64,000 nt of DNA from Hyphomonadaceae bacterium (lineage in GTDB: Bacteria; Pseudomonadota; Alphaproteobacteria; Caulobacterales; Aquidulcibacteraceae): contig JAIELK010000030.1 in NCBI GenBank assembly GCA_019753175.1, positions 1 to 64,000 on the forward strand, written 5' to 3'. A program made the translations under genes and the position numbers. How positions within the stretch are numbered: the stretch's first letter is position 1; the number at the start of each line of letters is the position of its first letter. Below are positions 51,685 to 64,000 of the stretch, one piece after another. Under the pieces are notes generated by a model that ran no database searches, was not told where the DNA came from, and saw nothing but the letters and a program-made list of their open reading frames with translations.

Positions 51685-52833
51685 TCAGCGCACGAGCTTG
51701 ATATCTTCCTTGGCGGCCCAGGCGTGGACGTCCTGGCGCTTTAGGGCGGTCGCCATCAGGTCAGGGAATTGGTCCGGCGTGCAGGCGAAAACTGGCGCGC
51801 CGAGCGCGGCCACGCGCGCGGAGAGCTGGGGATCATAGGCGGCGTGACCTTGATCGCTCAGCGCCAACAGCACGATGACGTTCACGCCCATGCCGATGAG
51901 GCGCGCCAGGCGCGTCAGCATTTCCTCGGCGTTGCCCCCTTCGTAGAGGTCGGTGATCAAGATCAGGTGCGCCTTGCTCGGCCGCTCGATCTTGTCGGCG
52001 CAATAAGCGACCGCCTGGTTGATGTCGGTGCCGCCGCCCAATTGCACGCCGAACAGAACCTCCACCGGGTCCGCCAATTCCTCGGTCAGGTCCAATATGA
52101 CGGTGTCGAAGCACACGAGCTTGGTTTTCACCACCGGCAGCGACGCCATCACCGCCGCGAAGATGGAGGCGTAAACGACCGAACTTGCCATTGAGCCGGA
52201 TTGATCGACGCAGAGCACGACCTCATCGAGGTCGACCAGGCGCCGCTGTTGGCGCATGAAGCCAATCAGGCGCTCCGGCACGACGGTGTGGTGCTCGGCT
52301 TGATAATGCTGGAGATTGGCGCGGATGGTGCGTGGCCAGTCGATATCGGCAAAGCGCGGGCGATTGGTGCGCCTGGATTTGTCGACCGCGCCGCGCAAGG
52401 CTTCGGCGGTTTTTCGCTCCAGCCGTTCCATCAATTCGGCCACGACCTTGGCGATGACGATGCGCGCGGTGTCTTTAGTTTTCTCCGGCATCACATTGCG
52501 CAGCGAGATCAGGTTCGCGACGAGGTTGATGTCGGCTTCGAGCGCGGCGAGGAATTCGGGCTCCAGCATCATGCGCTGCAGGCCGAGGCGTTCGAAGGCG
52601 TCCTTCTGCACGATCTGGACGACCGGCGATGGGAAGTACTCACGGATATCGCCCATCCAGCGCGCTACATTGGGGGCTGAACTGCCGAGGCCCCCGCGCC
52701 GCTTCTTCTCGTCAGCATCGCCTTCGCCGTAAAGCGCGGTAAGCGCGCCTGAAAGGCGCTGATCCCCCGTGCTGAGTGCATCATCCTCACCGCCCAGAGC
52801 CAGGCGCCAGCGGCGTTCGCGATCTTCACTCAT
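51685..52833 (-). CDS. VWA domain protein of the MoxR-SWIM cassette
   Basis: A 382-residue CoxE-like VWA protein. After a helical N-terminal region (about 1-190), the VWA domain carries the MIDAS motif VLCVDQSGSMASS, the Thr motif QLGGGTDINQAVAY and a later Asp (LILITDLYEGG). It probably binds a client or scaffold through a metal ion and works with the MoxR ATPase, as VWA/MoxR pairs do. Its start overlaps the DUF5682 stop by eight bases; it is the last gene in the cassette. Confidence 0.92.
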   Translation of the reverse strand: MSEDRERRWRLALGGEDDALSTGDQRLSGALTALYGEGDADEKKRRGGLGSSAPNVARWMGDIREYFPSPVVQIVQKDAFERLGLQRMMLEPEFLAALEADINLVANLISLRNVMPEKTKDTARIVIAKVVAELMERLERKTAEALRGAVDKSRRTNRPRFADIDWPRTIRANLQHYQAEHHTVVPERLIGFMRQQRRLVDLDEVVLCVDQSGSMASSVVYASIFAAVMASLPVVKTKLVCFDTVILDLTEELADPVEVLFGVQLGGGTDINQAVAYCADKIERPSKAHLILITDLYEGGNAEEMLTRLARLIGMGVNVIVLLALSDQGHAAYDPQLSARVAALGAPVFACTPDQFPDLMATALKRQDVHAWAAKEDIKLVR

Positions 52834-55078
52834 CGGCGGGCCTTGCGGTGAGAATTTGTGAGAGGCGCGCAAAGTGCGCGGGCCAAATCGCGGCGGCGTC
52901 GGGCAACAGCGCGCGGCGAGCGAGACTGGTCTCTACTCGGCCTAACAGAGCATCGAGCAAACGCTTGCGCTGCATGCGATCGAGATTGGAGAGGGATCGC
53001 CGGAACAACGGCAGATATTCCACGAATTGATCGCCGTCGAGCGTCTGCATCCAGCAATCGACCGCCTCGCGCAGAGCGGCATCATGGATCAATTGCTCGC
53101 CGGCGCCTTCGAAGAAGCCTTCGAAAAATCCGGCCGCGTCGATCACGGCTCTGCCCGGCGAGAGCGCGCGCCCGAGCAAGATCGCCGCCGCATCTGGCGC
53201 CAGCGCTCCCGCTTCGTAGAGCAGGCGCGCCGCCGCGCCCGCGACCAGGGGCGTTGCCTGGCCGTCGTGAACCAGCGTTTCCAAAGCCTCGCGCCAGGGC
53301 GCGCGCTCGACCTCTGACAGATCAATGAGCGCGACTGCGCCATCGGCGGCGCGTATAATCGCGCATAGGGTTTTGGCCGCGTCCTGATCGAGGCCGCGCG
53401 CGGCGTAAGGTAGCGCCAGCGCGCCCTGGATGAGCAGGCGCGTCAGCAAACCGTTCAGTTGCGCCGAGTCAGTCTCGCGCGCCTGGCCGTAGCGCAAAAT
53501 GGCGGCCAGCGGTGGCGCCGCCGCGAGCAGCTCGGCGCAATCGCTGGTCTGCGCGGCGCGTTTTTCGATCAGCGCGATGCCGCGTTCGGTCGCTGCGGGC
53601 AGCTGCGCGACCAGCGCGGCGTGAACCAGATCGGCCAGTTGCTTGAGATCGCTGGCCTGGTCGAGCTTGGCGCCGACGCGACCAGCCGCCGCCTGCGCGA
53701 TGGTTGGTCCGTAGACCAAATTCTCCACCAATTGCACGGCGAATTCCGGTTCCCAGCGCAGCACCCAGCGCTCGCGAAAGGTGCCGCGGGTGCGCCCGGT
53801 TTCAGCGAGCTTGCCCCAGGCGACGCCCAGGAGCGTGAGGCGATGCAGCAAGGTGGAGCGGTCGAGCCCGCTTTCGCTGCGCAAATCGATGGCGAGTTCA
53901 CGGTCCAGCGCCTCGGGTTTGAGGCGCGTGCGCTTCTGTTCGCGCTGCAGATCCTCGAGCAACGGCGCGAGCGGCACGTTGTGGGGAATGGCGCCAACCT
54001 CGGCGCCGATCAGCAGGCGCGCAGAGATGGTCGACCAAAGCAGCGCATCGCCGAAGCAGAGGCACGCGATCGCTGCTTCGCGCAATTCCTCGAAGCCCGG
54101 CGAAGGGCGCCCGCGCATGGCCGCAAGCGTCATCGCAAGGCGTTCGGCTTCGATCAGCGAAGCGGTTGAGACCATGTGGCCGTCGCCGCGCAGCGACGCA
54201 GCGATGCGCGTGAGCCAACGCGTGGCGATTTGCGCACGCGCCGTTGTCCAAATGTGTACGCACCAGCCAGGCGCGGCGACGCCCGCGCCGTAGCCGCTGG
54301 CGAAAGCAAGGCGCGGCGATGTCCACGGCGCCCAGGTCGCCGCGATTTTCTGTTTCGGCGCGCCCTTCAGCAGCGCCTTGTCCGCGGCCGCGGAGACCTT
54401 CTGACTGAGTGCGGGTGCATGCCAAGCGCCGCACACGACGGCGACGCCGCCGTCGGTTTCCTTCACGGCCTTGGCGATTTCCAGGCGCATGTGCGCTTCG
54501 CGCGCTGCCTCGCGCCCCTCGGCAACGGCGCCTTCGCGCAGCGCGCTCATGGCGTCGGCAATGGCGGCAAAGACCGGGCCCGGCGCGGGATTCTCCTCGA
54601 TGACATCGCGCCACCAGCTTTCGCTGTCCTCATAGCCGGCCGCTTGTGCAAGCGCGCCGATGGGGTCGCGCTCGAGCGGGTTGGCTTCTTGTGAGGGACG
54701 TTCTTCGGCCGATTGTTCCGCGCCTTCTTTGGAGTCACTTTCCGGCGCCTCGGGTGGGGCCAGGCGCCAAGCAGCGGGCAGGTCGATGAAACGCACCGTC
54801 GCGCCGTTGCGCATGGCCCAGCAGGCTGCCTGGTATTCGGGAGAATAGGTCGCGAACGGCCAGAAAATCGCGCGCGCTGGATCGTCGGCGGCGTAGGTGA
54901 GCAACGCCACCGGCGGGACCATCGCCGGGTCGGCCAGCATGGGCAACAGGTCCGAGGCGTCCGTTGGCCCTTCAATCAGCACTATGGTCGGGCTCAATTC
55001 GTCGAGCGCCTCGACCAGCCTGCGCGCGGAGCCGGGCCCGTGGTGACGAATGCCGAGGATGTGAACGGCCGACGCCAC
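52826..55078 (-). CDS. DUF5682 family protein
   Basis: A 750-residue protein. The N-terminal block VHILGIRHHGPGSARRLVEAL and IVLIEGPTDASDLLPML are the hallmark of DUF5682, with AVVCGAWHAPAL further on (about residue 225), a pattern recalling TraB/ChaN-like hydrolase folds. The long C-terminal half is helical and leucine/alanine-rich, suggesting a scaffold. There are no membrane segments. It lies five bases after the MoxR gene stop. Biochemical function is unknown. Confidence 0.88.
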   Translation of the reverse strand: MASAVHILGIRHHGPGSARRLVEALDELSPTIVLIEGPTDASDLLPMLADPAMVPPVALLTYAADDPARAIFWPFATYSPEYQAACWAMRNGATVRFIDLPAAWRLAPPEAPESDSKEGAEQSAEERPSQEANPLERDPIGALAQAAGYEDSESWWRDVIEENPAPGPVFAAIADAMSALREGAVAEGREAAREAHMRLEIAKAVKETDGGVAVVCGAWHAPALSQKVSAAADKALLKGAPKQKIAATWAPWTSPRLAFASGYGAGVAAPGWCVHIWTTARAQIATRWLTRIAASLRGDGHMVSTASLIEAERLAMTLAAMRGRPSPGFEELREAAIACLCFGDALLWSTISARLLIGAEVGAIPHNVPLAPLLEDLQREQKRTRLKPEALDRELAIDLRSESGLDRSTLLHRLTLLGVAWGKLAETGRTRGTFRERWVLRWEPEFAVQLVENLVYGPTIAQAAAGRVGAKLDQASDLKQLADLVHAALVAQLPAATERGIALIEKRAAQTSDCAELLAAAPPLAAILRYGQARETDSAQLNGLLTRLLIQGALALPYAARGLDQDAAKTLCAIIRAADGAVALIDLSEVERAPWREALETLVHDGQATPLVAGAAARLLYEAGALAPDAAAILLGRALSPGRAVIDAAGFFEGFFEGAGEQLIHDAALREAVDCWMQTLDGDQFVEYLPLFRRSLSNLDRMQRKRLLDALLGRVETSLARRALLPDAAAIWPAHFARLSQILTARPADE

Positions 55079-55083
55079 CGCGC

Positions 55084-56163
55084 TCAGACCAGATCGACCA
55101 GCATGCGATAATATTCCGCGTAATCGGCGCGCTTCTTGAGCACCGCTTCGAGATATTCTTCCAGCACCGCTTTGTCCTGCACCGGGTCCTTGACGATGGC
55201 GCCGATCATGTTGGGGGCGATGCCTTCGGCCGAGAGCTTGCCATTGTTGAAGAAGGCCGCTTGGCTCAAACCGCCGACCATGACGGCGATGGCTTCGGCG
55301 GTGGAGAGCGAGCCGGACGGCGTCTTCAGTGTCGTCTTGCCGTCAAGCGTCGCGCCACCGCGCAGTTCGCGGAAGATGGCCACAACCCGAGCAACTTCTT
55401 CGGCGACGTTTTTCGGCGCCGGCAAGTCGAGGCTCAGAGCCATCTCGCCGACGCGCTTGGTGACGATGGCGATCTCCTCGTCCATGTCGCTGGGAAGCGG
55501 CAGCACCACCACGTTGAAACGCCGCTTCAGCGCGGAGGAAAGTTCGTTGACGCCCTTGTCGCGATTGTTCGCGGTGGCGATCACGTTGAAGCCGCGCACG
55601 GCGTAGACGGCGCTGTTCAGTTCCGCGATCGGCATCATCTTCTCGGAGAGCACGGTGATCAGCGTGTCCTGCACGTCCGAGCCCATGCGGGTCAGCTCTT
55701 CGAGGCGGCAGAGCTTTCCCGCTTCCATGGCGCGAAACAGCGGCGTCGGCACCAGCGCCTGGCGCGACGGGCCGTGCGCCAGCAATTGCGCGTAATTCCA
55801 GCCGTAGCGGATCTGGTTCTCGTCGGTGCCTGCGGTGCATTGGACTATCATGGTCGAGTCGCCGCTGATGGCGGCGGCGAGATGTTCGGACACCCAGGAC
55901 TTCGCCGTACCCGGCACGCCAAGCAGAAGCAGCGCACGGTCGGTGGCGAGCGTGGCGATGGCGGTCTCGATCAGGCGCTTGTCGCCGACATATTTGGCGC
56001 TGATCGGGGCTCCGTTCTTGGCCTTGCCGCCCATGAGATAGGTGACGGTCGCGCGCGGCGAAAGCGCCCAGCCTTGCGGCTTGTTCTCATCATCGCCGCC
56101 GCGCAGCGCTTCGAGTTCTGAGGCGAAGGTCTGTTCCGCGGGAAGGCGCAGCGTGTCGCTCAC
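55084..56163 (-). CDS. MoxR-like AAA+ ATPase
   Basis: A 359-residue AAA+ protein of the MoxR/CobS type. Walker A is LLLGVPGTAKSWVSEHLAAA; the Walker B position reads LCRLEELTRMGSDVQDTLITVLSEK, so Glu replaces the usual Asp before the catalytic Glu. Sensor 1 is FNVIATANNRDKGVNELSSALKRRF. The N-terminal 80 residues are a substrate or partner-binding segment. MoxR proteins act as chaperones for VWA-linked complexes; the VWA partner is encoded two genes downstream. Its start overlaps the DUF5691 gene stop by four bases (56160-56163). Confidence 0.92.
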   Translation of the reverse strand: MSDTLRLPAEQTFASELEALRGGDDENKPQGWALSPRATVTYLMGGKAKNGAPISAKYVGDKRLIETAIATLATDRALLLLGVPGTAKSWVSEHLAAAISGDSTMIVQCTAGTDENQIRYGWNYAQLLAHGPSRQALVPTPLFRAMEAGKLCRLEELTRMGSDVQDTLITVLSEKMMPIAELNSAVYAVRGFNVIATANNRDKGVNELSSALKRRFNVVVLPLPSDMDEEIAIVTKRVGEMALSLDLPAPKNVAEEVARVVAIFRELRGGATLDGKTTLKTPSGSLSTAEAIAVMVGGLSQAAFFNNGKLSAEGIAPNMIGAIVKDPVQDKAVLEEYLEAVLKKRADYAEYYRMLVDLV

Positions 56164-57578
56164 GATTGGGGCTCCGTGGTTAGGGCGGCGTTCAGATACA
56201 GCACGTCAAGCTTAGGGTCGGCGGGCGAGAGGCCGCGCTCGGCGAGCTTTGCAACAAGGTCGCGGGCGCCGCGCGCATCGAGAATGAGGCCCAGATGATT
56301 GAGATGGGTGGCGAGAAGAGCGTTGCCGTGCGCTGGCTGAGCGTTGTCAGTCTTGCTTAGCGCGGTGTCGAGGCAGTGGGTGACCTGCGCAAAAGCAGGC
56401 GACGCAAGCACCGCGTCGAGCGCTGCCACGCCAAGGTCGCGTCCCATGAACGCCAGCGTTACCGACAATCCACCCGCGTCGTGCGCGAGGATTCGCTCCA
56501 GCAGCGTGCGTCGTTCTTCAAGCGAGAGGCGCTGCGCCAACACGGGCGCGCAGCGAAGCAGGTCGGCGCTCTCAACAACATGGCCCGCGAGCGTACGCAC
56601 CACTTCGTCGCTGCCGCTGAGCGCGACCTGGTTCACAAAGGCCTGTATCGCACCCCACTCACCGGCAGGCGGAGCTTCAACAAGCTGCATTTCGCTCGCC
56701 TTGAGCGCGCGCGCCAGTCCAGCCAGGCTCACAAGGTTCAGCAATTCCAAGCGCCGCGCGTTCTGCGGCCCGGTCTTAAGCGGCTTGAAGGCAATGTGCG
56801 TACGCCGATTGATCAAGCCGGTCTTCCCAAGCTCGACCATGTCGGCGAGTTCGGCCTCAGGCGCTTCTGCGTTGTCGCCCTTGCCCAGGCGCGCCAGAAA
56901 AGCGCGCGCCAGCCCCGCGACGCGATCGGAGCGATCCTTGAGCAAGGTTTCGATAAAGGAGGCGTCGGTCTCGCTAAGCTTGTGCGCCAGGATCTCGATA
57001 AGCCGCAGGCGCCGCTCGGCCGGCTCGGTTGCGGCTTTCGCCTCAATGATCGCAAGCGCCGCGGACGGGTTGCTTTCGCGCATGCGAACCAGGGCGAGCC
57101 GGCGTTCGCCCCATGACCAGGTTTCATAGGTGTCGGCGGTGAGTTCTTCTTCGTGTGGCGCCGTGGCCTCCGCGCGAACCCAATCAAGCCAAGGCGAATA
57201 GAGATCTGGCGCCCAATCGTCGCGTGGACCAGGCATCCAATCGCCAGGATGAACACAAAAGCCGCGCGCGGCGATCAGATGCAGGAGTTCTTGTTCAATC
57301 GGCGCACTGCTCTTCTGTGTAGCTCTAATGCGGCGGAAGCGGGCGCGCGTTTCCTCGGGAAGCGTGGGCGCAGCAAGCGGCGGAAGCAAAGGACGCGGTT
57401 CGAGCGGTTTGGCGGGGGCGGCGCGATAGAGCGTTTCATGCGCGACGCCCGCCAACGCGGCGAGTGCGGCCTCGCTGTCCGCCAGCGCGCGCCACGCTTC
57501 AGGGCAGCAGGCGCGCGCAGATTGGCCGGCCATCCAGGCGTCGCGCATGCGCGAGAGCGAACCATCGATGTCATGCAT
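56160..57578 (-). CDS. DUF5691 family protein
   Basis: A 472-residue, almost fully helical protein from ATG 57578. HEAT-like repeats are suggested by the spacing of segments such as RRLRLIEILAHKLSETDASFIETLLKDRSDRV and KGDNAEAPEAEL. DUF5691 proteins are known to me mainly as neighbours of SWIM-zinc-finger genes. The start overlaps the SWIM gene stop by eight bases and has GGAGG upstream, so the pair is coupled. It is probably a scaffold; no catalytic motif was found. Confidence 0.8.
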   Translation of the reverse strand: MHDIDGSLSRMRDAWMAGQSARACCPEAWRALADSEAALAALAGVAHETLYRAAPAKPLEPRPLLPPLAAPTLPEETRARFRRIRATQKSSAPIEQELLHLIAARGFCVHPGDWMPGPRDDWAPDLYSPWLDWVRAEATAPHEEELTADTYETWSWGERRLALVRMRESNPSAALAIIEAKAATEPAERRLRLIEILAHKLSETDASFIETLLKDRSDRVAGLARAFLARLGKGDNAEAPEAELADMVELGKTGLINRRTHIAFKPLKTGPQNARRLELLNLVSLAGLARALKASEMQLVEAPPAGEWGAIQAFVNQVALSGSDEVVRTLAGHVVESADLLRCAPVLAQRLSLEERRTLLERILAHDAGGLSVTLAFMGRDLGVAALDAVLASPAFAQVTHCLDTALSKTDNAQPAHGNALLATHLNHLGLILDARGARDLVAKLAERGLSPADPKLDVLYLNAALTTEPQS

Positions 57579-58935
57579 CGAAAGCGAGCCTCCCCCAATT
57601 GGTGCGCGCGGCCACGAGTGAGAGCCGCGCGCCATCCCAGAGGCCAAACGCGTTGTCGATCGCTGCGCCCATGCCGAGTAGCGGCGGAGCGGTACGCAGC
57701 GGCGCTACAATTCCAGTGTCCGAGCGCCACCAATGCAGCTTGCCCTCTGGGACTAGCCGTCCCGCCGACAACAGCACGGGGGTTTCCACGCGCCACGGCG
57801 CGGCCATGAGCTGAGCCGCGTGAGCCGTTATCGGATCGGCATCGGCCGCGGGCCAAGCGCCATCGCCGGGCTCTGCATCTTGGCGCGCGGCAATGACAGC
57901 GCGCAATGGCGCGCACGCGGGATAGAACGCAAGCTCCGCATCGATGCTCTCGCCGGCGACAAACGCGCCGCCGCGCCGCCCGGCGGAGGCTGGGAAGAAA
58001 TCCAGCAGCAGAGCGAAACGCTGTGGCCCGCCGTTTGTGTTCAGAAGCCAAGTCGATTGACTGATGAGGCCGTCCCGCCGCGTTGTGATTTGCTCGCCGA
58101 GCACTTCCCAGGTTGAGCGGACGCGCGGCGCGTCGGCATTGTTCAACACGTCATCGCGTGACTCGGAATTGATCACCTCGCGGCGCAATTCGGGATCGTC
58201 CGGTTGCGCGCGCCATGCGCGCGTCAGCAGCGCGAGTTTGCCCAGTTCACGAATAGCGGCGTCGATGCGCCCATCGTTGGGTAGGGTCAGCAGGCGGGAC
58301 GGCATTTCGTCGACGCGGCTCGCGAGTGCCGCGGCCTTGGCGTCCACCAGACGCGCGGCGATGCGGCGGCAGCGTTCGCTGAGTTCTCCCAAGAAGCCAG
58401 CAAGGCCAGTGCGGAACTGATCTTCGATCCAGAGATCGAGATCTTCAGTGGCGCTTCGAACTGAGCGGCGTGTTTCGAGAGCGCGTTTGCCGGAAGCGGC
58501 CTTGCGTCGCGCTTCGGCTAGGGGGTCGAGCGGTCTTGCTTCGAGCGTCGCTGCGGCGACGTCGAGGCTTTTGGCGTCGTTTGAAGTGGAAACGGGCGCC
58601 GCCGCGCCCTTTCGTCTGCGCCCCATCCAATCATTGACCCAGTCAGGAATGGATCCTGGCTGGAACGCCGCTGCGTTATCGACATACATCCACATCAGCG
58701 CGAGCGCGTGTTTGCAGGGGAATTTGCGTGAGGGACATGTGCATTTCGAACCGTGATCGGCCGTATCAGCGACAACGCGATACGGGTTGGCGCCCGAACC
58801 TTGGCACTCGCCCCAAATCAAGCTGTCCGCCCGCGCCCGCACCGGCCATTTCGCGGGCTTGAGCAAAGCAGACGCGGCGCTGAGCGCGCTTTGGTCGGGC
58901 GCCATCGCCTCGATCAAGCTGCGCGTGAGTCCCAT
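57571..58935 (-). CDS. SWIM zinc finger protein
   Basis: A 454-residue protein from ATG 58935. The SWIM motif is SKCTCPSRKFPCKHALALMWMY (C-x-C-x(6)-C-x-H, about residues 62-82), a zinc site that binds DNA, RNA or proteins. A Gly/Arg/Lys-rich linker with low complexity follows, then a long region including DLWIEDQFRTGLAGFLGELSERC. It is the first gene of the five-gene cassette, so its promoter probably lies between 58936 and the short ORF at 59076. Confidence 0.9.
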   Translation of the reverse strand: MGLTRSLIEAMAPDQSALSAASALLKPAKWPVRARADSLIWGECQGSGANPYRVVADTADHGSKCTCPSRKFPCKHALALMWMYVDNAAAFQPGSIPDWVNDWMGRRRKGAAAPVSTSNDAKSLDVAAATLEARPLDPLAEARRKAASGKRALETRRSVRSATEDLDLWIEDQFRTGLAGFLGELSERCRRIAARLVDAKAAALASRVDEMPSRLLTLPNDGRIDAAIRELGKLALLTRAWRAQPDDPELRREVINSESRDDVLNNADAPRVRSTWEVLGEQITTRRDGLISQSTWLLNTNGGPQRFALLLDFFPASAGRRGGAFVAGESIDAELAFYPACAPLRAVIAARQDAEPGDGAWPAADADPITAHAAQLMAAPWRVETPVLLSAGRLVPEGKLHWWRSDTGIVAPLRTAPPLLGMGAAIDNAFGLWDGARLSLVAARTNWGRLAFDA

Positions 58936-59075
58936 GTACGGGCGCCTCCTCGATGTTGGTTTGGTATCGCAATAAAGATATCTCAGGGCAATGGCGATGC
59001 TCGCGGGTTGCACCGCGTCTTGAATCTGAGCCGCCGCGATGTTATGTGCGCCGCTCCGAGTTCGAGGTGAGAGCT

Positions 59076-59367: not shown

Positions 59368-59712
59368 ATGAGCAAAGTACACGTGAATGTCGGCACCATC
59401 GGCCATGTCGATCATGGCAAGACGACCCTGACCTCCGCGATCACGCAGGTGCAGGCGGCGCATCTTGGCGGGAAAGGCTTGTCGTTCGATCAGATCGACA
59501 AGGCGCCCGAGGAAAAGGCGCGCGGCATCACGATCAATGTGGCGCATGTGGAATACGAATCCGAGACCCGGCACTACGCCCACATGGATTGCCCCGGCCA
59601 CGCCGATTACGTGAAGAACATGATCACCGGCGCGGCAGACAAATCCAAGTGCGAACACATCCTGCATGCGCGTCGTCTCCTTCAGCGCATGAGGATGACG
59701 GGCGTCATATGA
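59368..59712 (+). pseudogene. tuf: Truncated EF-Tu gene fragment
   Basis: Residues 1-91 are clearly elongation factor Tu: [20 protein letters not shown] (G1), [16 protein letters not shown] (G2) and [20 protein letters not shown] (G3). Then about 20 residues are missing (the usual [20 protein letters not shown] stretch), the text resumes weakly as CEHILHARR, and the frame drifts to a stop. G4/G5 and domains 2-3 are absent, so it cannot work as EF-Tu. It differs from what I expect of the native alphaproteobacterial tuf (shorter start, [13 protein letters not shown]), so it may be acquired. Confidence 0.85.
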
Positions 59713-59934
59713 AGGTTCGAGGCGGCAAGATCGGGTGGGGCATTAAGGGCGCATGAAGATTGGGCCTGAACGGGCTCGACCCGCCATTACTGCGTCCAAT
59801 GCAAAGTCGTGTGCGCTTACGTGTGCACCGACACCGCACGCAACCGCTCGCACAATGCACAGTATCCGCTAAATCAGTGTTCAATCCTCAGTATGTCCTG
59901 CTCCGCGGAGGACACACTCGAAAAATCAATGAAA

Positions 59935-60012
59935 TGAAACAATTAGATCGCCGTTTCTGCATAGCGCCCATGATGGATTGGAAGAGAAGCTGTAGAAAAA
60001 CATGCGCTTAGA
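59935..60012 (+). pseudogene. dusA: dusA 5' end fragment, probable integration site
   Basis: ATG 59935 opens a 25-codon frame whose first half, KQLDRRFCIAPMMDW, is the N-terminus of tRNA-dihydrouridine synthase A (usually followed by TDRHCR). Immediately after MMDW the text changes to KRSCRKTCA and stops. The rest of dusA is absent. The 5' end of dusA is a known target of a family of integrases, so this looks like one attachment-site scar. Confidence 0.8.
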
Positions 60013-60292
60013 CGCGCGCGGGCACACAGCGGGCACACGCAGGAAAATGAAAAATTGGACGGATGGACGAGGCGTGGTGGGCGGCCTCGCGCAGGCGCTC
60101 TGATCCTTGAAAGCGCGCGCAATGCGTTAACGTCCCCACGTCGCAGAAAGACAGAAGGGTGGCGAATGGAACGGCAGGCTTGTGCACGTTCCCAGCCCAA
60201 GCGACACATTGTTGCGATTTGGCGTCTTTGGCCCAAGTTTGTCGTTCGGCACGTTGTTGGTTTTCGTCAACTTCGCACCGATGTCCCGCGGA

Positions 60293-60306: not shown

Positions 60307-60510
60307 GCGCTGGGGGTCAGCCGGTCAATGTCAACGCCGTGGGCATGACGGAAGATGAATGCGCTCCGAGCCCTGGCGCCTAAGGCTCTCCCTTGATGCG
60401 ATGGCGCTATGGCCGAGCGCGGCGGGCTGATGAATGGGTCAAAAGCCCGCTGCGCTAAGGGAGATGCGTGGAAACGCCGTCTCCTCCCAGGTTTGGAAAG
60501 GGGCGGCGGC

Positions 60511-61488
60511 GTGCAGCGACTTGAGGACGGCTTTGGCCGTCGTTTTCCATACTTGCGCCTATCGGTCACCGAGGCATGCAATTTTCGCTGTACCTATTGC
60601 TTGCCCAACGGGTACCGAAAGTCCGCCCCCAATGATTTCCTCTCGGTCGACGAAGTATCTCGCCTTGTCCGCGCCTTTCATGCGCTTGGCGTCCAGAAGG
60701 TCCGACTCACGGGCGGGGAGCCCAGCGTGCGCGGCGATCTGGTGGCGCTCATCGCGGCTGTGACCGAGGCGGGCGTCGAGAAGGTGGCGCTAACGACGAA
60801 CGGGTGGCGCTTGGCGCGCGGCCTTAAGGATTGGGTGCGGGCAGGGCTCACGCACCTCAATGTGAGCGCCGATAGCCTCGATCCGTCTGTATTTGCGCGG
60901 GTGACCGGTCATGACAGGCTGTCCGAGGTTTTGGCAGGCGTCGATGCCGCGTTGACGCATCCGCGCCTAACGGTGAAGCTGAACGCCGTTCTTCTGCGCG
61001 ACACGCTGTCGGAGGGGTTCAGCGCTTACGCATCGTACCTGAAGAAGCGGAAAGTCAGCGTCCGCTTCATCGAGTTGATGCGCACCGGCGATAATGCGGC
61101 GTTCTTCGCAGGTCAGCACGTGCCCGGTAGCGAATTGCGGAACTGGCTTCGCGACCAGGGGTGGTCGCCAGTGGAGCGCGGCTATGACGATGGGCCAGCG
61201 ACTGAATTTTCTCATCCCGAATATGAGGGCCGCTTTGGCCTCATTGCGCCCTATGCGCCTAGCTTCTGTGACAGCTGCAATCGGTTGCGTGTGACTGGGA
61301 GAGGAAAACTGCGCCTTTGCTTGTTCGGTGATGGCGGCGTTGACTTGCGCGATGTACTGCAGACGGACGAAGACCGAGATGCGCTCATGGCGCGAATCAC
61401 AGACGCGCTCTTCTTCAAGCCCCGTCGGCATGCCTTGCTCACGGGAAATCCCGGCGATACCAAGCATCTCGCCGAGTTAGGCGGTTGA
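60511..61488 (+). CDS. moaA: MoaA-like radical SAM protein (GTP 3',8-cyclase)
   Basis: About 325 residues from GTG 60511 (GGAAAGGGG upstream); an ATG at 60409 in the same frame would add 34 residues of unlikely text. The radical SAM cluster is TEACNFRCTYCLPNGYR, followed by RLTGGEPSVRGD. The second iron-sulfur cluster is CDSCNRLRVTGRGKLRLCLFG. The C-terminus ends AELGG, the double-Gly that MoaA uses in catalysis. It starts molybdenum cofactor synthesis, needed by nitrate reductase. It is likely a second, island-borne copy. Confidence 0.9.
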   Translation: MQRLEDGFGRRFPYLRLSVTEACNFRCTYCLPNGYRKSAPNDFLSVDEVSRLVRAFHALGVQKVRLTGGEPSVRGDLVALIAAVTEAGVEKVALTTNGWRLARGLKDWVRAGLTHLNVSADSLDPSVFARVTGHDRLSEVLAGVDAALTHPRLTVKLNAVLLRDTLSEGFSAYASYLKKRKVSVRFIELMRTGDNAAFFAGQHVPGSELRNWLRDQGWSPVERGYDDGPATEFSHPEYEGRFGLIAPYAPSFCDSCNRLRVTGRGKLRLCLFGDGGVDLRDVLQTDEDRDALMARITDALFFKPRRHALLTGNPGDTKHLAELGG

Positions 61489-61499
61489 GGAGTTCGAGG

Positions 61500-61871
61500 G
61501 TGAGCTTAAAGAACGAGGCGGTGATCCGCGACTTCGTCAAAGCATGGTCGCGGCTGAATCCCGAGGAGATAGCGGGCTATTTCACGGAAGAGGGCGTCTA
61601 CCACAACATGCCGGCGGGACCGGTGCACGGACGAGAACGCATCCGCGCCTTTATCGCAGGTTTCATCAAGGACTGGACCGCTACGGAGTGGGATCTGTTG
61701 ACCATGGTGAGTTCGGGGGACGTTGTGGTCGCCGAGCGCTTGGATCGGACTCGTTCGAAAAAAGGAGAGGTCGACCTGCCCTGCTGCGGGGTCTTCGAGA
61801 TGCGTAACGGCAAGATCGCTGTCTGGCGCGACTATTTTGATCTTGCGACCTACACGCGCGCGACGAGTTAA
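61500..61871 (+). CDS. Limonene-1,2-epoxide hydrolase/SnoaL-like protein
   Basis: About 123 residues from GTG 61500, with GAGGAG upstream. The NTF2-like fold is shown by VIRDFVKAWSRLNPEEIAGYF and VYHNMPAGPVHGRERIRAF. Candidate catalytic residues of the limonene-epoxide hydrolase type lie in VAERLDRTRSKKG and GKIAVWRDYFDLATY. The substrate is unknown, and such proteins are also found as inactive NTF2-like partners. It starts 12 bases after moaA and overlaps the convergent regulator by four bases. Confidence 0.75.
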   Translation: MSLKNEAVIRDFVKAWSRLNPEEIAGYFTEEGVYHNMPAGPVHGRERIRAFIAGFIKDWTATEWDLLTMVSSGDVVVAERLDRTRSKKGEVDLPCCGVFEMRNGKIAVWRDYFDLATYTRATS

Positions 61872-62635
61872 GCAGCGCCCGCACGCTGGTGTTCGGTGGA
61901 CCAGATCTCGGCGTCGGCTTCCGCGAGCAGGGGCGCCCGCGGCGCATAATTGTCGATAAGCGGGTCGGGGCGCGCGAGCCGCTCAAGGTCGCGAAGCTTC
62001 CCTAAACGTACGTCGGCGCCGTTCACTTCAACACCATAGCCGCCGAGAGTCGCGAAGGCGCGGGAGAGGTTTTCCGGCGTCATTCCAAGGAGGGCGGCCA
62101 GCACGCGTTTCTCGTGCGGCAGGTGGATGTTCTCGCCGCCGCCGGACTTGGCGCGCAGGGTGAGGAGATAATTGGCTAGGCGTTCGACGCCGCCGCGTAG
62201 CTTTTGATTCTTGATTGTGCGCACAAGCCCTCGGTAGCAGCCCGAGAGTTCGCGAGAGATAGCGACCGCGAACGCGGCGTCCTCGGCCATGTTCTGACGG
62301 ATGGCGTCGCCCGAGATCATCAGGATTTCGCAGCGTTCCAGTGTACGCGCCGACATCAGCGCATCCGCGTCAAGAACGACTGCTGCCAGGATGAAGGTTG
62401 AAACGGGGCGCAGGATCGTCAGAGTCGTTTCCTTGTCTTTCCAGGTGCCCTGAAGCTCGACCTGCCCCTCAAGCAATACATAAAGAAAATCCACCGGGTC
62501 GCCTTCCAGCAAGAGCGTAGTGTTTGCCGGAAAGCGCTGAAGGTAAGCAGTGCCTGTGACACGGTTGGAAGTGTCGTCGCTGACGCTCGCGAACATCGGT
62601 AGTGCACGAACCTTCGGAGTATCGGTGGGCCGCAT
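61868..62635 (-). CDS. Crp/Fnr family regulator of FNR/NNR type
   Basis: About 255 residues from ATG 62635, with AGGGAG upstream. The cyclic-nucleotide-binding fold covers about 15-140 (TTLLLEGDPVDFLYVLLEGQVEL) and the HTH about 170-215. The recognition helix TPENLSRAF keeps the E-x-x-S-R set that reads TTGAT half-sites in FNR. The N-terminus has no cysteine cluster, so it is NNR/DNR/NarR-like rather than oxygen-sensing FNR. It is divergent from the NarK-like gene, whose upstream region holds matching boxes. Confidence 0.88.
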   Translation of the reverse strand: MRPTDTPKVRALPMFASVSDDTSNRVTGTAYLQRFPANTTLLLEGDPVDFLYVLLEGQVELQGTWKDKETTLTILRPVSTFILAAVVLDADALMSARTLERCEILMISGDAIRQNMAEDAAFAVAISRELSGCYRGLVRTIKNQKLRGGVERLANYLLTLRAKSGGGENIHLPHEKRVLAALLGMTPENLSRAFATLGGYGVEVNGADVRLGKLRDLERLARPDPLIDNYAPRAPLLAEADAEIWSTEHQRAGAA

Positions 62636-62737
62636 CAGGACTCTCCCTCTTTGAGTTGCCTGATACGCTACGGTCCGGTCCGCATCTTGATCTCCATCAA
62701 TTGGCAGCCCTGTTTCCCTCGAAATGGCGCGCGTGAG

Positions 62738-62751
62738 TTGACTAAAATCAA
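62738..62751 (+). promoter_or_regulatory. FNR/NNR-like box
   Basis: TTGACTAAAATCAA matches TTGAT-N4-ATCAA at nine of ten fixed positions, about 100 bases upstream of the regulator start. It may serve autoregulation or a distal narK promoter. Confidence 0.65.
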
Positions 62752-62852
62752 GAGACGCAGTCGACGAACGCAAATGGCTGCCAGAAATCTGCATTGGTGC
62801 GACCTCGCGCACTTGCTGCGGTCAATTATTTCTCCCGGGCGGCGCGCCTCGC

Positions 62853-62866: not shown

Positions 62867-62946
62867 GCGCTGCCGCGCGCACGCAGGCCATTGTGCAGCC
62901 GTAAGTGAAGCGTCGGCCTTCACGGCCAAAAGAGGGGCGGAGATTC

Positions 62947-64000
62947 ATGGTCACTGCGGCTGAACGACCAGCGCCTGGGGCGGGCGGCGCGCTTTGGATG
63001 AGCACAGTGGCGTTCACGACATGCTTTGCTGTCTGGACGATCTTTTCGATCCTTGGCGTGCAGATCAAGAACGACTTGGGGCTGACAGAAACCCAGTTTG
63101 GCCTGCTGATCGGCACACCCATTCTCACGGGCTCCCTCATTCGCTTGTTTCTTGGCGTATGGACCGATCAGATCGGCGGCCGCATCGTCTACGCAGGCGT
63201 CATGCTCGCGGCGGCGGCGGCGACATTCTTGCTGTCATACGCCGAGACCTACCCGCAATTCCTGCTGGCTGCGCTTGGCGTTGGCATTGCGGGTGGCTCG
63301 TTCGCCGTCGGCATCACATATGTTTCCAAATTCTACCCTCAGAAAAGCCAAGGCACGGCGCTCGGCATTTTCGGCGCCGGCAATGTCGGCGCGGCCGTGA
63401 CAAAATTCGCCGCGCCCGTCGTGCTTGCGGCGATGGGCTGGGAGCGCGTCGCGCAAATTTGGGCGGCCGGGCTAGTTGTCATGGCGGTGGTGTTCTTCGT
63501 CACCACGAAGGACGATCCCGAGCTTGAGGCGCGCCGCAAGGCCGGTGTGAAGCCCCGCTCGCTCGCGGAGCAATTCGAGCCGCTGAAAAACGTGCAGGTC
63601 TGGCGCTTCTCGCTCTATTACTTCTTCGTGTTCGGCGCCTTCGTGGCGCTTTCGCTGTGGCTGCCTCGCTACCTGATCGGCGTCTACGGCTTCGACTTGC
63701 GCACGGCCGGCATGATCGCGGCGGCGTACTCGATCCCGGCTTCTCTCTTCCGCATCTATGGGGGATTTCTCTCCGACAAGGTCGGTGCGCGCAAGGTGAT
63801 GTACTGGACGTTTCTCGTCTCAATGGCGGCGACGTTTGTGCTCTCGTACCCAGCAACGACGTATATCGTCGATGGAATCGAAGGGCCTATCCAGTTTCGC
63901 TTCGAACTCGGGCCGGTCGGCTTCATCGTTGTCGCCTTTGTGCTCGGGTTCTTCATGAGTCTGGGCAAGGCGGCCGTCTTCAAACACATCCCGATCTACT
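62947..64000 (+). CDS. narK: NarK-like nitrate/nitrite MFS transporter (3' end beyond the window)
   Basis: The open frame from ATG 62947 (GGAG upstream) runs to the end of the window, so only about 351 residues are seen; the ORF track omits it because no stop is reached. Nine or so membrane spans are visible. LTGSLIRLFLGVWTDQIGGR is the MFS A-like motif with the Arg used for nitrate binding, and GIFGAGNVGAAVTKF carries one of the two family signature glycine-rich motifs. It resembles NarK1-type nitrate/proton symporters of alphaproteobacteria. Confidence 0.88.
   Translation, partial: MVTAAERPAPGAGGALWMSTVAFTTCFAVWTIFSILGVQIKNDLGLTETQFGLLIGTPILTGSLIRLFLGVWTDQIGGRIVYAGVMLAAAAATFLLSYAETYPQFLLAALGVGIAGGSFAVGITYVSKFYPQKSQGTALGIFGAGNVGAAVTKFAAPVVLAAMGWERVAQIWAAGLVVMAVVFFVTTKDDPELEARRKAGVKPRSLAEQFEPLKNVQVWRFSLYYFFVFGAFVALSLWLPRYLIGVYGFDLRTAGMIAAAYSIPASLFRIYGGFLSDKVGARKVMYWTFLVSMAATFVLSYPATTYIVDGIEGPIQFRFELGPVGFIVVAFVLGFFMSLGKAAVFKHIPIY

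Follow-up and report, generated by a model that had tools for sequence, protein, structure and literature searches.

The window considered here, that is the whole stretch of 64,000 nucleotides analysed (G000:C15:1-64000, from the 82,525-bp contig C15 of a 3.13-Mb draft genome in 40 contigs, most likely of a member of the Caulobacterales judging by relatives among Caulobacteraceae, Hyphomonadaceae and allied records), carries near its right end a scrap of dusA of just 78 bases. The question raised by this locus is which event displaced the beginning of the gene, and whether a single insertion is sufficient to explain what surrounds it.

The displaced dusA start and the intact gene

The scrap lies at positions 59934-60011 of the plus strand and its translation begins with MKQLDRRFCIAPMMDW. 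The frame opened by the ATG at 59934 reads MKQLDRRFCIAPMMDWKRSCRKTCA and reaches a stop at 60009-60011; by comparison with the DusA start of relatives, it consists of a displaced dusA 5′ fragment followed by 9 element-derived codons and the stop. The dusA start is cut at the att core ATGATGGATTGGA (59970-59982, plus strand), so that the boundary near 59983 proposed by the first-pass annotation is correct and its coordinates are good to within a base. The same 13 bases recur at C5:19063-19075, in the 5′ part of the intact dusA on another contig. A search of the entire 3.13-Mb genome with the 18-mer CGCCCATGATGGATTGGA, tolerating up to 2 mismatches, returned two matches, namely an exact one at the scar and one with 2 mismatches in the real dusA on C5, while the reversed pattern gave zero matches in the same search; the core is present on C15 and C5 and at no other place in the genome.

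The sole intact dusA of the genome (C5:18988-20034, plus strand) is a 348-aa frame with a Dus domain of 252.6 bits, and it begins with the same core as the scar. Its product starts with MRFSVAPMMDW, unlike the scar up to the core and like other DusA proteins after it. The 5′ end of this gene has been replaced and the gene is still intact. Directly upstream, and head to head with it, lies a 357-aa tyrosine integrase (PF00589; C5:17814-18887, minus strand), and this adjoining of the two 5′ ends is the arrangement by which a dusA-specific genomic island is recognised. Specifically, R213, H304, R307, H330 and Y339, the catalytic residues of tyrosine recombinases, are invariant in a four-member alignment, and 70 of the 80 nearest relatives of this integrase in GTDB genomes lie at most 600 bp from a dusA core. 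Imperfect direct repeats of about 21 bp are found in dusA at both ends, CGCCCATGATGGATTGGAAGA on C15 and CTCCAATGATGGATTGGACGG on C5, with 17 of 21 positions identical by eye. The first-pass annotation had predicted a tyrosine integrase beside a refilled dusA beyond the window, together with a direct repeat of the att core, and all of these are present on C5; an intact dusA upstream of the scar on C15, which it had named as evidence to the contrary, is not there.

Arm repeats and the pairing of the two ends

The dusA elements compared, both known and newly found, have at each end two short repeats with a spacing of 11 bases, and for either end the distance of this pair from the core is constant. 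On the scar side, a direct-repeat pair of 11-base period begins about 50 bases rightward of the core. Its counterpart on the integrase side lies to the left, mostly beginning 148-149 bases from the core, and a 6-mer repeated with an 11-base period occurs in the interval in 57 of 71 elements, against 1 of 71 shuffles. The repeat pairs are putative arm-type integrase-binding sites. In the window, the element-side (P′) pair CGGGCACACAGCGGGCACACG (60019-60039, plus strand) has the 11-base period and stands at +49 from the core, and it shares its motif with the pair at C5:18913-18933, which lies 150 bases to the left of the core on C5. When 398 genomes of the order were searched with a composite attL pattern, made of the core and the arm-repeat pair with a 26-base range of offsets allowed, 12 sites were found in 11 genomes, all with the same offset and one of them being C15:59970-60036, while the reversed pattern had zero matches. 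Nor did the genus supply relatives that carry this fragment here without the nitrate genes, which the first-pass annotation had regarded as adverse to an island: in the genus, matches to the attL pattern were confined to this genome, G007 and G003.

The fragment is short, and it might be taken for a chance resemblance, or for a decayed duplicate of dusA arisen with no integration at all. Such an origin is hardly conceivable in view of the exact core, the in-frame DusA start and the arm pair at a conserved offset, and it was rejected on the evidence of the reversed pattern in the 398 genomes. The 78-base scrap is a genuine scar of insertion, best explained as the attL junction of a genomic island specific to dusA.

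As C15 and C5 are unjoined in the assembly, another link between the two ends was sought in the arm repeats. Contig-end overlaps provide no link between them: the start of C5 overlaps no other contig, and C15 terminates in a dispersed repeat that breaks the assembly, so that the two island ends lie on separate contigs with the break at the repeat in between. The last ~128 bases of C15 (C15:82398-82525, locus L007) contain a 57-128 bp dispersed repeat common to the ends of C3, C21, C24 and C31. Most elements have GTGTGCA as their common motif, whereas the scar and the C5 element have GGGCACA at both ends. The pair GGGCACA-N4-GGGCACA is found at a single place on C15 (60020, attL) and at a single place in the 40 kb of C5 that were read (18914, attR); of the remaining loci fetched, it was present only in L178/L280, whose integrase is the nearest one. 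One motif is common to both ends in G007, G211 and G005, whose elements are complete on a single contig, and likewise in the two scars of G039. When arm motifs were permuted (5 by 5), the true pairing came at rank 6 of 120, a result of little weight because three of the five elements share the common GTGTGCA. Since GGGCACA arms are shared by both ends, the scar on C15 and the site on C5 would represent attL and attR of the same element.

The alternative is that the two sites belong to different islands, one having lost its integrase end and the other its scar, with the nar genes being ordinary chromosome beside an old scar. The break of the draft assembly between C15 and C5 and the usual location of nar genes elsewhere in genomes of the genus would agree with this explanation, which is nonetheless quite improbable given that the genome holds only two cores and that the rare GGGCACA motif is common to just these two ends.

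According to the one-element model, the island's tyrosine integrase would recombine a core located at the MMDW codons of dusA. The earlier 5′ end of the gene would be left on the far side of the island as the scar, and the island would have supplied a new 5′ end, so that dusA remained intact at the other junction, on C5. Excision as a circle would restore the previous dusA, reading MKQLDRRFCIAPMMDWTDRHC. The island would run from C15 to C5 across the contig gap, with a size of at least 41.6 kb if the gap adds only more island DNA.

On a more general level, dusA islands may combine a common target core with arm repeats that differ by lineage, stand at set distances (about +50 and -149, with the 11-base period) and serve as a private address; this is a tentative proposal, possible but doubtful at present. 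If true, stacked islands would recognise their own two ends and would not excise each other's. In practice, the core and the arm-repeat motif together offer a rule by which the ends of dusA islands can be paired across broken contigs, and by which stacked or decayed islands can be spotted where a simple direct-repeat search would read a single one.

Probable cargo and left flank

The cargo feature recognised first, 370 bases in from the edge, is a molybdenum cofactor (Moco) riboswitch (60352-60519, plus strand; RF01055, 75.6 bits), directly before moaA (60409-61488, plus strand; TIGR02666). The true start of moaA is probably downstream of 60409, as the listed ORF start falls inside the riboswitch. 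There follow an FtrB/FNR-type regulator (61868-62812, minus strand) and the start of a fused NarK-type transporter (62905-64000, plus strand), and then narGHJI, nrdJ and moa/moe genes up to the contig end at C15:82525, with narG assigned from its homologues. At the C5 end, the cargo comprises a type II GAPDH, a heavy-metal ATPase, an AdoMet synthetase, PPK2, a cyclopropane synthase, pieces of a HerA-type ATPase and a DNA methylase. The scar end of the island would carry molybdenum-cofactor and respiratory nitrate reductase genes, whereas its integrase end would hold genes for metal, polyphosphate and HerA/methyltransferase functions. Adjoining the integrase, a module of low G+C content (55-57%; L085:12560-16938 on C5) encodes an unknown protein, a HerA-type ATPase in two frames and a DNA methylase, and resembles a module for defence or DNA processing that carries a frameshift. 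On C15, the G+C content drops from ~65% to ~60% near 58-60 kb.

The first-pass annotation had described a dusA-targeted island with accessory genes to the right of the scar. The island itself, with its left end at about 59983, is borne out, and the nitrate genes are likely, though only likely, its cargo: the assignment is not closed because the contig breaks at the dispersed repeat before the other end, and because most relatives carry nar elsewhere. Specifically, NarG and the nar cluster occur in 20 of 30 genomes of the genus, nar and dusA lie on different contigs wherever both were mapped (G005, G007, G009, G018 and G022), and the neighbours of the cluster differ in G042, G021 and G011. This occurrence and these differing neighbours indicate that the nar cluster is accessory and not tied to dusA islands in general. 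A recent transfer of nar was considered and rejected: NarG is 95-97% identical to that of five genus members, but the DNA of the cluster is mostly ~77-83% identical, so that the transfer is not very recent. How the nitrate-respiration cluster probably entered this genome can be read from sequence alone.

To the left of the scar, the first-pass annotation had seen core genes. This holds only to the left of about position 50 kb, where inspection of ORFs recognised topA, dprA, gatA, gatB, pyrB and others, and fails for 51.7-59.0 kb, which is occupied by an accessory cluster of five genes (SWIM, DUF5691, MoxR, DUF5682 and VWA-CoxE; 51685-59013, minus strand). Its last gene, SWIM, is present in 3 of 30 genus genomes; the other two of these, when examined, have the block complete but lack the genes that flank it on C15. 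The block is thus patchy in the genus and moves as a unit. PADLOC gave no defence match for the four genes of the block that were scanned. The block may be cargo of an older island, or may have arrived independently. In relatives, the genes downstream of dusA are conserved, whereas those upstream differ in nearly every genome, and for this reason no empty-site comparison is possible. G016, in which an ABC transporter adjoins dusA, was considered as the ancestral order and rejected; the transporter lies at C15:11-15 kb here, with an orientation that a simple insertion would not produce.

A probable older island and known systems

A second pair of repeats lies on the other side of the scar. The sequence TCGTGTGCGCTTACGTGTGCACCGA (59807-59831, plus strand), 163 to 139 bases left of the core, aligns with the family consensus of the integrase-side (P) repeat at the expected distance from the core. 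Its arm score of 18 is the best among 3262 windows of C15 and C5 (122 kb), the next being 14. By the same scoring, integrase-bearing dusA starts in the genus reach 14-18, except for G005, which has a different motif and scores 10, and apparently element-free dusA starts and outer scars mostly reach 6-9 (a single one reaches 12). This GTGTGC pair of 12-base period is the only such pair on C15 and the part of C5 read. With integrase-side arms left of the core and the integrase absent, the stretch left of the scar is consistent with the right-hand end of a dusA island that is older and has decayed. It is probable, from this arrangement of repeats, that such an island had supplied the dusA start of the scar and that the scar is the inner joint of a stack; that is, the newer island would have entered a dusA already refilled by an older one, now decayed. 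The first-pass annotation had taken the fragment for the original dusA start of a plain chromosome, a view made less likely by the integrase-side arms of what would be another dusA element on the left. If the older element is real, TCGTGTGCGC..CGTGTGCAC before an intact dusA is not expected in close relatives lacking a dusA island.

The inner scar of a tandem array is flanked by integrase-side arms of the older element on its left and by arms of the newer one on its right, as seems to be the case here. An array should also retain the integrase and the attL of its older element, and neither was found. No integrase remnant was detected left of the scar, and the place expected for it is occupied by a tuf (EF-Tu) 5′ pseudogene, truncated and internally deleted (59368-59712, plus strand; PF00009; 73% DNA identity to a tuf-like stretch at C14:53974). 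An attL of the older element, where a third dusA start would be expected, appeared neither in the genome core search nor in other searches; candidates from a genome-wide search for GTGTGC pairs were rejected, the 14 matches equalling the number in the reversed control and only the known attL being exact. The claim is therefore limited to a remnant of a dusA array, not an intact one, whose older integrase and attL would be decayed or deleted.

The competing possibility is that a single island inserted into the ancestral chromosomal dusA, whose start would be the left half of the scar, with the CGTGTGC pair to the left being a coincidence. The period of this pair, 12 bases and not 11, counts against an older element, and the pair at 59807-59831 was not recognised by a profile HMM built for the arm region. 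Moreover, MKQLDRRF resembles starts with no adjacent integrase (MKQLDRRFSIAP in G020, MKKLDRRL in G022), a profile built from element-supplied starts gives the scar a score like that of element-free dusA starts, and an integrase remnant is undetectable on the left. Against a coincidence, no other site in 122 kb matches the family consensus as well, this site lies at the expected distance, and the 12-base-period GTGTGC pair is unique in the parts read, so that a single insertion is rather unlikely. Overall, the best explanation, and one held with considerable confidence, is that the scar is the attL of a dusA-specific island with nitrate cargo, inserted, though with somewhat less certainty, onto an older, decayed dusA island.

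The main text of Farrugia et al. 2015 (PMC4482086) describes dusA-specific islands, 42.6 kb on average, that give dusA a new 5′ end while the old one marks their outer boundary. The element described here shares with them, as presented there, the target codons, the head-to-head integrase, the new dusA 5′ end, the original 5′ end kept as outer boundary, the mosaic cargo and the usual size. It differs in its Nar/Moco cargo, absent from that main text, and in its arm repeats, which the same main text does not describe; the C5 integrase group has GGGCACA, as opposed to the common GTGTGCA. The dusA element of the Caulobacteraceae MAG X3_MaxBin.015 (L178) has the nearest integrase (73%) and the same GGGCACAATCCGGGCACAA arms, and its genome, in what was read, lacks a scar bearing GGGCACA arms, unlike the element of C15 and C5. 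Stacked dusA elements are known in Vibrio, where IEVpaBan1a/b are in tandem (PMC8409611). Two elements would likewise be stacked at one dusA here, unlike the Vibrio pair in that the older one lacks an integrase and a detectable left end, and that no SGI1-like genes are present in the parts read. Stacked dusA scars were also observed in relatives, at L082-L084 (G005:C12 ~6-41 kb), L263 (G071:C2:1723928) and L264 (G258:C4:61756), among them scars with changed cores (APMMDC in G071 and G258, APLMDC in G005). Inner scars occur in all three genomes, and those of G071 and G258 are comparable to that of C15. The mechanism is thus already known from dusA-specific islands (PMC4482086), and what the scar apparently displays is two insertions, not one.
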